From Halieaceae bacterium (GTDB lineage Bacteria; Pseudomonadota; Gammaproteobacteria; Pseudomonadales; Halieaceae), in assembly GCA_018657645.1 (NCBI GenBank), contig JABHWT010000081.1:1-33478 (forward strand): a stretch of DNA of 33,478 nucleotides. The letters are read 5' to 3'. Under the pieces are notes generated by a model that was given only the letters and a program-made list of their open reading frames with translations, was not told the DNA's origin and did no database searches. Made by a program: the position numbers and the translations under genes. Positions 1 to 13,470 of this stretch are shown here, one piece after another. Position 1 is the stretch's first letter. Each line of letters opens with the position of its first letter.

Positions 1-284
1 CTGGTGTTCCTCGTCACTCATACTGTAATATTCAGCGAGTCGTCAAAGGTCACCAGCAAGACGCGCTTTCGCATGCATAGTGGTGCTACGTCAAGAAAAC
101 GCAACGCAGCGGGTGACTTTTGACGGCTCGCCCGAAGGGAGTCTCCCAATTTGCCCGCTGCCGCGTTACAACTCTTGGCAAGGTGACCTACATTCCCTGC
201 GAGCTGCGTCGGAGTGCCGCACCACTCGCAGCGAACAACTTGGGAGGCTCTGAATGCTACAGTATGAGTGACGAGGTACACTAG
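1..284. repeat. MITE-like or large palindromic repeat element with ~37 bp terminal inverted repeats
   Basis: Bases 1-37 (CTGGTGTTCCTCGTCACTCATACTGTAATATTCAGCG) match the reverse complement of 248-284 (CTAGTGTACCTCGTCACTCATACTGTAGCATTCAGAG) at 32/37 positions, with a perfect 19 bp core. Nested inverted pairs: GGTCACC 48-54 / GGTGACC 182-188 and CAGCGGG 107-113 / CCCGCTG 154-160. No convincing gene inside. Confidence 0.6.
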
Positions 285-299
285 CGTCAGGTATTTCGC

Positions 300-8454: not shown

Positions 8455-11400
8455 ATGAAAGTTGAGATTTATATTCTGATCATATGTGTTGCGGCGGGAA
8501 CTATGAAAACTGCCGCCGATGATATTGATATTTATCTGGATAGTACATCAAACCCCGGAGCTTCCTATGTGCACCTTACGCTGGATTACCAGTCCGGTGT
8601 TTTTGAAGGTCTCTGTACTTATGGTGATTCTTGTCTGCCGCCGTTTATGTCGGCACAAACCTATGACAATCTCGGTCCTCATGCGGCGTCGGATACCATA
8701 ACCCGCTACGATGCTTTGGTGGCGATTATGACCACAATTATTGATAATCCGTTGTTTGGGAATGTCTACATGTCGCTCCTTATTTCCAATTCGGTAAATG
8801 GCGGGACGGTACTGGAAGGTTATAAGAAACTAGGCGATCGCGGCGCTGAATTGATCGCCACAATGCGTCAGATTGCCGCTCCTAAAAATAGTAGTGAGGC
8901 GCATAGACTGCAACCCAGTGAGACCTACTATGAATGGTACCGGTATATTAATGGCGAGGCTGTCGAAAACGGGACCACGACTGAAAACAACTTTGGTGAA
9001 ACGAATTTTCCCGGCTATGACAGGTCCATAATCACCGGGGGAACATACATACCGCCCTTCATCGATATCAAAGCCTGCACAAAATTCATCTCAATACTGA
9101 TAGCGATGAATGGTGCAGATCAGGATGGCTCATTGAGCAACCAGATTGCAGCGGATATGTCAGGGTCGGCGTCGCTTTCGTTCGAGAATATGATGAAGTA
9201 CATGCACGACAGTACATCGGATCTAGTCTCTGGTATCGAAGGCGTTCAGCACCTGGCGAAAAGTGTGATTATTTCAAGTTCCGATGGCGCAGCGGTTACG
9301 CAGGGTTGGGTCAGAGCTGGCGGAGGCGAGTCTTCGCTGGATATTGACAAGCCTGCTCAAGTAGAGCGCGCCTTGCACCTGGCATTTAGTGAGGTGCGCA
9401 GCACAAGTAGTACCTATATGCCCGCTTCGGTACCCCTTAGCGCATACAATCGCGCCGAGTCACTGGACAATCTGTTTATCGCCCTGTTCGAGGCCCGATC
9501 AACGCAGCGTTGGCCGGGCAACATCAAGAAACTCAAACTAAAGGACACCAATGCGGATGGTATGTTTGACCAAATTGTTGATGCGGTCGGTGATCCAGGC
9601 TTTGAATCCTCAGGTCCAAATATGGGGCGCATTCGATTTAGTGCGGTGACTTTCTGGACCGATCCGTCGGCACTTCCACCCGGCGATGGTGTGGCTATAC
9701 CCACTATGGCTGACGGTAGGGTGGTGGCCAGAGGCGGTGCTGGTCAGAATATAGTTGGCTTCCTTGATGATGGTGTTCACTGGATAGGCTCAAGTAACGG
9801 TGGTGCTGATTCAGGCTTTGGCTCCAGACAGATTTACTTTGAACCAGATTCAATTACAAGCGGTGCAAGTAATGCGCTTGTAGATTTCAACTCAGACCAT
9901 CGCACTGCGACAGCGCTGCAAAATTTGTTGGGCGCATCGACAGTTAGGGGCGCACAAGATCTTATTCAATGGGGGCGCGGAAGCGATGTAGACGATGAAG
10001 ACGGTGATGGAAATAAAACCGAGGCGCGGTCATGGATATTTTCGAACGTCCTTCACTCGCGGCCACTTGCCCTGAATTACGGAGCCGTTGGTGGCTATAG
10101 CGAGGGTAACCCCAATATCCGTTTGTTTTTGGGGACGGGAGATGGAATGTTTCACATTATTGAGAATACCAGAATTGATGGAAGCGAATCCGGTCGGGAG
10201 GTACTGGGGTTTTACCCCAGAGAAATGCTGGCCAATATTGCAACGCAAAGAATCAATACTGAGTCGAGTTTTAAGATGCGCTACGGCGTAGATGGCAGCC
10301 CTGTGGCATTTGTCGTCGACGTCAACAATGATGGCAATTTGAATAAGCCAGATGGTGATGAGGCCTATGTCTATTTCGGTCTGAGGCGAGGAGGTTTCAG
10401 CTATTACGCTTTGGATGTGAGCGATCCTACTTTGCCCCCTACACTTAAATGGAAAATATCACCCACTACCGGGGGTGACTTTGATGGTATGGGTCTTACT
10501 TTTTCCGTTCCCGTAGTTGGGAAGGTGAAATATGGGGGCCACGCCAGGGATGTACTGATCTTTGGCGGAGGATATAACGGGGGCTGGGATTCGAACTATA
10601 CAGCCAGGGTGGGTAAAGACGCAGGCGACGAGGATGATGTCGTTGGCAACGCTCTGTTTATAATCGATGCGCGAACAGGAGAATTGATCTGGAAGGCGGT
10701 GAACGGCTCGAAGGTTGCTACGGACAACACCTACTATCACAAAGATCTAACGGATAGCATCCCTTCAAGTGTGACTGCATTGGAAAATGGGAACGGTATT
10801 GTTGATCGCCTTTATGTCGGTGACACCGGTGGCGCAATTTGGCGCGTGGATCTGCCGGAGGGCTCCACACCGGAGCACCGGAAAAATAATTGGTATATTT
10901 CCAAATTTGCAGAGCTGGGAACCGATGGCTTGACCACTGATCGCAGGTTCTTTCATCCGCCGGATGTAGTGAGAACTTTCGATGACAATGGAAATTTCGA
11001 TGGTGTGCTGATCTCAAGTGGAGACCGAGCCCATCCCAATGACCTCGATGTCGTGAATTACCTTATCTACATTAAGGATCGCAACACGGCAAGCGGAGAT
11101 CATACGGTTAGATTTCGCGCGCCGTTAACTATTAGCAGTGCACACCTGCCCGATCAAACTTCGTGTATAAACGGAGACGAAGGCTCTGGCAATTGCGCAA
11201 CGTCGCTGCCCTACGGTTGGAAAGTAGAGCTAAAAGATGAAGGTGAGAAGGGGCTGTCGACGCCGATAGTGGAAGCAGGCAGAGTATTTTTGTCGACGTT
11301 TTCTCCTGCCTCCGGGGCAACCGACTGCATACCGACAACGGGGCAGGGGTCTGTTTACCTGGTTAATTTGGCTGATGGCACAGCGGTTTACAATAATAGG

Positions 11401-12091: not shown

Positions 12092-12108
12092 ATTGCGTCA
12101 GAGGTACA

Positions 12109-13470
12109 CTAGTCATCCAGTCCGAGCTTCTTCATCCTATAACGCAGACTGCGAAAACTCACTCCCAGTAATTTTGCAGCGTTGGTTTTATTCCAGCGCG
12201 TGTCCTCCAGGGCCTGGTTGATAAGACTGCGCTCAATTCCTTCAAGATAACCCTCCAGGTTGCCTCCGGCATCATGATTTTGTAGTTGCTCACCGCTACC
12301 AGGGGTCGTTTCTGTTTTTGCCTGTGCGTTACTAAATTGCAAATCGTCGGCCGATATAGGTCCGCCCTCAGACAGTGCCACTACCCGCTCCAGCATGTTT
12401 TCCAGCTCCCTCACATTACCGGGGAATGCGTATGAAGTGAGTGCCGAGACAGCTGAGTCATCAAGTTCTGGTTGTTGGCGGTCACCCGTGGTATTAATAC
12501 GCCTCAGTATTGCTCGGGCCAGTTCTGGAATATCCTCTGCGCGCTCGCGAAGCGGTGGGACATGTACATCGATAACATTGATCCGGTAGAACAAGTCACT
12601 GCGAAAATGGCCTGCGGAAACCTCCGCGGTAAGGTCCTTATGGGTAGCGCTAAGAACCCGAACATCGGCGGCCTGCTCCGCGGCAGAACCTACCGGCCTT
12701 ATGGCTTTTTCCTGAATGGCGCGCAGAAGTTTTACTTGCATTGACAGTGGCAGGTCGGCGACCTCGTCCAGGAATAGAGTGCCACCGGACGCAGCCTGAA
12801 ACAGGCCTATCTTGTCCTGGTTTGCCCCCGTGAAGCTACCTTTTATATGGCCGAACAGCTCACTCTCCATCAACTCTGGTGGAATTGCTCCGCAGTTAAC
12901 GGCAACGAATGCTCCCGCCGCTCGAGGTCCATTTTTATGAATGAGACGGGCCACCACTTCTTTTCCGCTACCCGACTCTCCGCGTATATGCACAGGTGCC
13001 TGGCTGCGAGCGAGCTTTGAAATCTGCAAGCGCAGGCTCTTAATGGCTGGCGCTGAACCTATTAGCTCTTGATCAACGGCGGCACTTTCTCTGCTTGCAT
13101 CGTCGCCTAATTGTAGGGCCGTGATGACCAGACTCCGCAGGCGTTCGAGTTCGATCGGTTTGCTAATGAAGTCGAAGGCGCCAGCTTTGAGGGCAGAGAT
13201 CGCAGTCTCAACGCTGCCATGGGCAGTGATCATGGCAACCGGAATATGTGGATGATCTCGCTGAATATATTCTACCAGGCTGATTCCGTCGCCATCCGGT
13301 AAGCGCATATCGGTGAGACATAGATCGGGCAGGACTTCAGCTACCATGCCCTGGGCCTCACCCAAAGTTGCTGCACTGTGGGTCTCCAGGCCCATTCTAC
13401 TTAGTGTAATGTCGAGTAATTCGCGAATATCGGGCTCGTCGTCCACGATCAATACGCTTTGATTAGCCAT
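12109..13470 (-). CDS. pilR: sigma-54-dependent response regulator PilR
   Basis: REC domain (MANQSVLIVDDEPDIREL), AAA+ with GESGSGKE and GSFTGA, C-terminal Fis-type HTH; adjacent to the pilS-like kinase. Confidence 0.93.
   Translation of the reverse strand: MANQSVLIVDDEPDIRELLDITLSRMGLETHSAATLGEAQGMVAEVLPDLCLTDMRLPDGDGISLVEYIQRDHPHIPVAMITAHGSVETAISALKAGAFDFISKPIELERLRSLVITALQLGDDASRESAAVDQELIGSAPAIKSLRLQISKLARSQAPVHIRGESGSGKEVVARLIHKNGPRAAGAFVAVNCGAIPPELMESELFGHIKGSFTGANQDKIGLFQAASGGTLFLDEVADLPLSMQVKLLRAIQEKAIRPVGSAAEQAADVRVLSATHKDLTAEVSAGHFRSDLFYRINVIDVHVPPLRERAEDIPELARAILRRINTTGDRQQPELDDSAVSALTSYAFPGNVRELENMLERVVALSEGGPISADDLQFSNAQAKTETTPGSGEQLQNHDAGGNLEGYLEGIERSLINQALEDTRWNKTNAAKLLGVSFRSLRYRMKKLGLDD

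Follow-up and report, generated by a model that had tools for sequence, protein, structure and literature searches.

Introduction

Several families of small mobile elements have been described whose ends, targets or folds can be compared with a palindrome found at the left edge of a bacterial contig. IS630 of Shigella sonnei prefers the TA of 5′-CTAG-3′ as its target, according to Tenzen and Ohtsubo (1991) as cited in PMC2170065. RUP of Streptococcus pneumoniae, for which mobilisation by IS630-Spn1 has been proposed (PMC2229807), and Correia/NEMIS of Neisseria are small, TA-flanked elements with terminal inverted repeats and a stable fold in the transcript. MITEPsy1 of Pseudomonas syringae has a 4-nt target, CTAG or YTAA, and the ends GGAAGGTCTGAAAAAGCC, and is related to IS5 (PMC3189936). 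QMITE1 and QMITE2 of Coxiella burnetii are gammaproteobacterial MITEs with stable folds that overlap the 3′ ends of genes (PMC5896051). REPIN/BIME repeats likewise contain two inverted hairpins, but these are built from 20-40 bp GTAG-type REPs with RAYT (tyrosine transposase) partners and lack long terminal repeats and target duplication.

The DNA analysed here (the window, 33,478 nucleotides) is the whole contig G000:C121:1-33478 of a fragmented metagenome assembly (G000; 5.4 Mb in 491 contigs, 89% complete). The element at its left edge resembles members of the IS630/Tc1-mariner group in its TA duplication and its preference for CTAG, and an IS630 with related ends resides in G000; unlike IS630, the element has no transposase, and its ends are only 27/35 identical to those of the resident copy. 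RUP and Correia/NEMIS differ from it in their size (about 107-155 bp) and their single stem-loop, and a double-hairpin core common to different terminal-repeat families is not described in the literature consulted on them. MITEPsy1 resembles one of the related end classes reported below, the GGARCCTCTGAATAACTCC class, including its 4-bp target rule, but at 100 bp and with a target rule other than TA it is unlike the class found in the window. The direct repeats of QMITE1/QMITE2 (2-3 nt of variable sequence; 7-11 nt) differ as well, and both elements are reported only from Coxiella. REPIN/BIME serve as an analogy only, as the units described here are hairpins of ~97 nt, set apart from REPs by size, terminal repeats and target. 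An earlier note on this DNA had offered MITE-like or BIME-like as its reading; the BIME-like alternative is not supported, because each copy is one long element that has terminal repeats and a CTAG target, whereas BIMEs are clusters of GTAG-type REPs of 20-40 bp.

Results and Discussion

Structure and position of the window element

Complementarity between the arms at 1-35 and 250-284 reaches 89%. Within positions 1-600 of the window, the best 35-nt inverted repeat paired at 31/35 positions, compared with at most 25/35 in 100 shuffles, and the perfect 19-bp core reported earlier (CCTCGTCACTCATACTGTA) is present. Folding gave z = -11.0 as RNA and z = -7.9 as DNA, with none of the shuffles equally stable. 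The palindrome is thus real, but it does not fold into one long arm as had been proposed: a basal stem (about 1-34 with 251-281) carries two hairpins, A and B, and a tiny hairpin (Table 1). No ORF of at least 100 aa is confined to the element, which encodes nothing.

Table 1. Features of the window element, of a putative second site in the window and of minimal copies in related assemblies
Feature	Position or locus	Strand	Basis or remark
Element with CTAG-type target, coordinates of the earlier note	1..284	.	Aligned to full copies C397, C82 and G163:C6
MITE copy proper, 278 bp, without own ORF	4..281	.	Ends GTGTACC...GGTACAC from 19 paired-end copies compared
Left target dinucleotide TG (TA in intact copies)	2..3	.	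Beside contig edge at base 1
Right target dinucleotide TA, within CTAG	282..283	.	
Left terminal inverted repeat, 5′ side of basal stem	4..34	+	
Right terminal inverted repeat, 3′ side of basal stem	251..281	-	
Hairpin A, 97 nt	35..131	+	Fold; motif related to AAGGCGC...GCAACGC
Mini-hairpin CCGAAGG, separating A and B	132..138	+	Fold; CCTTCGG/CCGCAGG/CCTGCGG in other families
Hairpin B, 112 nt, inverted relative of A with extra 15-nt tip	139..250	+	Matches model R1
Probable relic, solo 12-bp end CTAGTGTACCTC, TAG being the stop of an ORF	12101..12112	-	Exact 12-mer, rough expectation 0.004 in window; weak
47-bp minimal palindromes	L107, L108, L110, L118, L179, L182, L190, L195		In G161 and G163

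Comparison with other copies places the start of the element at base 4: these read C-TA-[GTGTACC ... GGTACAC]-TA-G, where the window reads C-TG-[GTGTTCC. The copy is therefore complete and does not extend to the left of the window, as the earlier note had considered possible. Base 1 marks the limit of the contig, and the left flank is unassembled. The suggestion that the missing murJ marks a rearrangement point found no evidence; murJ is not visible because the contig breaks at base 1. In G004, an ORF that we take to be murJ directly precedes ribF, and the space between the two holds no such element. Contigs also end inside or beside element copies elsewhere (G025:C6, G021:C140, G161:C65, G161:C222 and G162:C291, besides G000:C121), as is expected for repeats in short-read assemblies.

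On its right, the element is followed by ribF (341-1273), with FAD synthetase and riboflavin kinase domains. A -10-like motif (TTCGCTATAAT, 295-305) lies just to the right of the element and recurs upstream of ribF in relatives without the element, so the window copy lies directly upstream of a probable promoter, for which it may supply the upstream DNA.

Dispersal and target

Using window positions 1-290 as a query, BLAST against G000 returned 63 matches at E <= 10, many of them partial copies or solo ends, including two further near-full copies in C397 (83%) and C82 (77%). A 26-bp end pattern (TAGTGTACCTCGTCACTCATACTGTA, up to three mismatches) occurred 13 times in G000, 10 times in G021 and 15 times in G025, and its reversed control not at all. 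G021 and G025 belong to genera other than that of G000, and the window family is absent from the same-genus genomes G001 and G002; any match to the family was found in 8 of 58 relatives. The end was also present in the gammaproteobacterial metagenome assemblies B36_G6, B37_G6, B19_G6 and KW1-S15_72 (named records). No match was obtained when the family's sequence was compared with a plasmid collection, when viral contigs were searched with the hairpin motif, or when a phage collection was searched with a related class. As a separate observation, a 26-mer (GTGCCCGAAAAAGAGGGGCAGGCTCT) is nested as a small repeat inside hairpin A of L003 (G000:C82) and also stands alone in intergenic DNA at L054, L060, L066 and L070 (G004) and at L055 and L062 (G018).

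Among the 19 copies with paired ends, TA flanks the element on both sides in six and on at least one side in all. Target-site duplication, which had been named as a check, is thus seen in some copies and imperfect in most, the window copy with its TG and TA included. The second flank is often CCAG, CTGG, CGAG or CAAG opposite an intact CTAG, even among identical 47-bp copies, so that decay must be assumed even for these. VSR-type repair of CTAG or a one-sided stop-codon constraint are possible reasons for the one changed flank. CTAG is scarce in the window, with 21 sites compared with 129 expected from base composition. Duplication of all 4 bp of CTAG was considered as the rule for the window class and fits worse than TA, as the flanks CTAA..TTAG of L179 are not a direct 4-bp repeat. 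In related classes, copies flanked by TTAG..CTAG, again no direct 4-bp repeat, and CTAG..CTAA fit TA duplication.

Presence and absence were compared at orthologous sites of other copies, the window copy lying at a contig edge, mainly between the related metagenome assemblies G161 and G163. The places in G163 orthologous to two 47-bp copies of G161 (L182 and L176) are empty. In G161, a third 47-bp copy (L184) sits where a long open frame meets its stop codon, and G163 lacks this copy; the frame ends in CTAG both with and without it. Its right flank (query 906-959) holds an unrelated ~54-bp repeat, containing GTCATTCCCACGCAGG, that occurs at about ten places in G161. Between hslV and hslU, G163 has a 264-bp copy and G161 only a short stub of the left end of that copy, while G003, G030, G018 and G021 lack the element. 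At one further site, a 47-bp copy in G163 corresponds to a longer copy bearing hairpin B in G161. Wherever it could be examined, the family was thus the opposite of a single-copy sequence kept at one locus without length polymorphism. The 47-bp form consists of two terminal repeats back to back around one central base and occupies some eight places across G161 and G163. These palindromes are candidates for being among the shortest MITEs, or else recurrent deletion products.

Related IS630 elements and proposed mobilisation

In G000, an IS630 element of about 1.16 kb (L153) has CTAG flanks and a 361-aa transposase (NF033545, 289 bits at a cut-off of 100), and its ends (CTAGTGTAGGTCGTCATAAATAGTGTAACAT) match the MITE end at 27/35 and 23/35 positions. 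A second IS630 copy, L161, lies at a TAG stop. Searches with DDE_3 and transposase models (3 and 140 genomes) found no exact autonomous partner of the window family apart from this related IS630; a full insertion sequence sharing the terminal repeats, which had been named as a check, was thus seen in these genomes with related ends and not with identical ones.

Given the related IS630 ends and the shared CTAG target, an IS630-type MITE moved in trans is the best reading. The observations on which it draws are that copies sharing these ends are dispersed, that they target CTAG, with a duplication in some, that orthologous sites can be empty, that G000 also holds an IS630 with related ends, and that the element lacks coding capacity. 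Positions 4-281 of the window are accordingly regarded as probably a non-autonomous IS630-type MITE that targets CTAG, duplicates TA and has moved both within this lineage and in related genera, which bears out the MITE-like half of the earlier note. The IS630 transposase, or a lost relative, would act in trans on the terminal repeats.

Placement at stop codons

Stop codons closing frames of at least 100 codons fell exactly at the element end for 16 of 71 ends in the window family and for 17 of 102 in related classes, whereas each other offset between -100 and +30 held 0.22 and 0.35 stop codons, respectively. The targeting of CTAG accounts for most of this pattern: of the control CTAG strands in the fetched loci, 88/861 (10.2%) are stops of such frames, leaving an enrichment of ~2-fold beyond all CTAG sites (p = 0.003 and 0.001, with control loci that are not independent). 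Judged from protein ends, the genes with an element at their stop presumably include fdx, moaD, frr, trkH, pyrE and those for an enoyl-CoA hydratase and porins. In the window itself, a 453-aa ORF (12109-13470, minus strand) ends in ...GACTAGTGTACCTC, and the 12-bp end at this place (Table 1) is a probable, weakly evidenced relic of a second copy.

The first base of the element, next to the duplicated TA, is G, so that TAG would be rebuilt when a C-TAG stop is the insertion site. Gene ends would then be harmless insertion sites, and insertion preference together with selection against gene damage may have left copies at stops and in intergenic DNA. Selection for 3′ ends as the sole explanation was rejected, because divergent intergenic copies are common.

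The same contexts bear on a different proposal, in which the element is a regulatory or structural repeat, a REP/BIME-like 3′-UTR hairpin selected for mRNA stabilisation or termination, and its dispersal is old and incidental. The very stable fold, the position after stop codons and the intergenic bias (three spanning ORFs in 74 elements) would suit such a role. The empty orthologous sites in relatives, the divergent promoter regions that make up 13 of 58 classifiable contexts and the two same-genus genomes without the element all speak against it, and we consider it very improbable.

A double-hairpin core found with different ends

The interior of the window element recurs with different ends, as seen first in G030, G016 and another G000 contig. 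In an alignment of module B from eight elements, 19 of 35 pairs were changed on both sides; all five covariation measures exceeded 500/500 shuffles and fell sharply when the partner was slid, although the structure came from this very alignment and is thereby favoured. A covariance model of one hairpin (R1) matched in 84 of 392 genomes of the order and in 46 of 143 genera; at most nine candidates were scored per genome, so copy numbers are lower bounds. The window copy scored 106.7 bits (G000:C121:130-256; E 1.2e-23), a match by construction as it is part of the model's alignment.

Full elements, delimited at 74 R1 loci, fall into more than ten end types, among them CTAGTGTGGTGTAACG, CTAGTGTCCTGTCCGG, CTAGTGTCCCTTAACATAAG, CTAGTACTCTTTCAGGG, CTAGGGGGCGTTCTCAATTAG and GGARCCTCTGAATAACTCC. 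A common fold was found in 76 of 81 elements: a basal stem of ~31 bp, two hairpins mostly of 96-100 nt and a CCGAAGG/CCTTCGG-like mini-hairpin. The two hairpins of the core are in inverted orientation, B being an inverted relative of A, and share the consensus AAGGCGC...CGCAGGGAATGG...CCCTTT.CAAGAG..GCAACGC. The outer stem of hairpin A mostly pairs at 83-100%, with all four Watson-Crick pairs occurring at most positions. Both motif halves (AAGGCG/GCAACG) were present in 12 of 18 hairpins outside the model, compared with 1 of 43 shuffled sequences, and since these hairpins were unused by the model the motif is not only an artefact of the search. Concerted evolution of A and B within an element was considered and rejected, similarity within elements (0.671) equalling that between elements (0.66).

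No description of the double-hairpin elements came up in Rfam 15, the annotation of the records checked or the open-access literature searched; Rfam 15 gave nothing relevant for the window element (E up to 1) or for 19 relatives (E up to 0.5). Named occurrences include the P. aeruginosa PA83 plasmid NZ_CP017294.1 (near 8597-8791), the A. chroococcum plasmid pAcX50f and a plasmid of Halomonas sp. PA16-9, none with an annotated feature at the site in the PLSDB gene tables, which are incomplete.

Target rules differ between end classes. The GGARCCTCTGAATAACTCC class shows exact 4-bp duplications in 11 of 22 cases, including the non-palindromic CAAG, TTAG and TAAA, and the GGGGGCGTTCTC class has TA flanks on both sides in 9/9. 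MITEs that follow at least two different target rules therefore share the core. In the complete genomes G513, G326 and G361, no end pairs at IS-like spacing were found; the ends, present in many copies, occur almost only at MITE spacing.

This lack of IS-sized pairs of like ends in G513, G326 and G361, despite their many copies, is what would be expected if the double hairpin, rather than the terminal repeats, were recognised by the mobilising machinery as single-stranded or cruciform DNA, leaving the ends free to change. The constant size of the core across more than ten terminal repeats and the near-invariant motif halves, found also in hairpins not used in finding the elements, point the same way. 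Such a structure-specific element is nonetheless unlikely, as the clean 4-bp duplications of one class and the TA on both sides in another indicate DDE transposases acting on the ends, and core-less 47-bp copies occupy several sites.

Template-switch correction of palindromes can likewise produce paired changes in the stems when structure is not under selection, and the symmetric changes in perfect 47-bp palindromes (L179) are as this process would give. These changes, together with the many solo and truncated copies in G000, fit a plain decaying MITE whose core is an inherited ancestral interior, its stems kept in register by template-switch correction and functionless. This account may be correct, though we would not favour it over its negation: conservation of unpaired and loop-side motifs and of the 97-nt hairpin length extends across families whose stems and ends have lost any common sequence. 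This loop-side motif and the hairpin length argue for constraint better than the covariation does.

We tentatively propose, as a possibility still short of an even chance, that the elements form a widespread, apparently uncharacterised gammaproteobacterial superfamily of ~270-bp palindromes, in which the core is constant and recognised or selected while ends, target rule and transposase family are interchangeable. Under the favoured reading of an IS630-type MITE, the shared core would be retained because it helps such passengers to persist; most likely its folding, in the transcript or as extruded DNA, would make insertion near genes tolerable.

Implications

The interior of a MITE is usually seen as leftover. 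Here, architecture, dimensions and a loop-side motif are kept while the ends change, and with the ends the type of transposase probably changes too. Selection on a MITE interior thereby becomes testable, for example for harmless insertion near genes or for recognition as a structure. The exact placement at TAG stops offers a simple account of how CTAG-targeting elements may spread through compact genomes without breaking genes.
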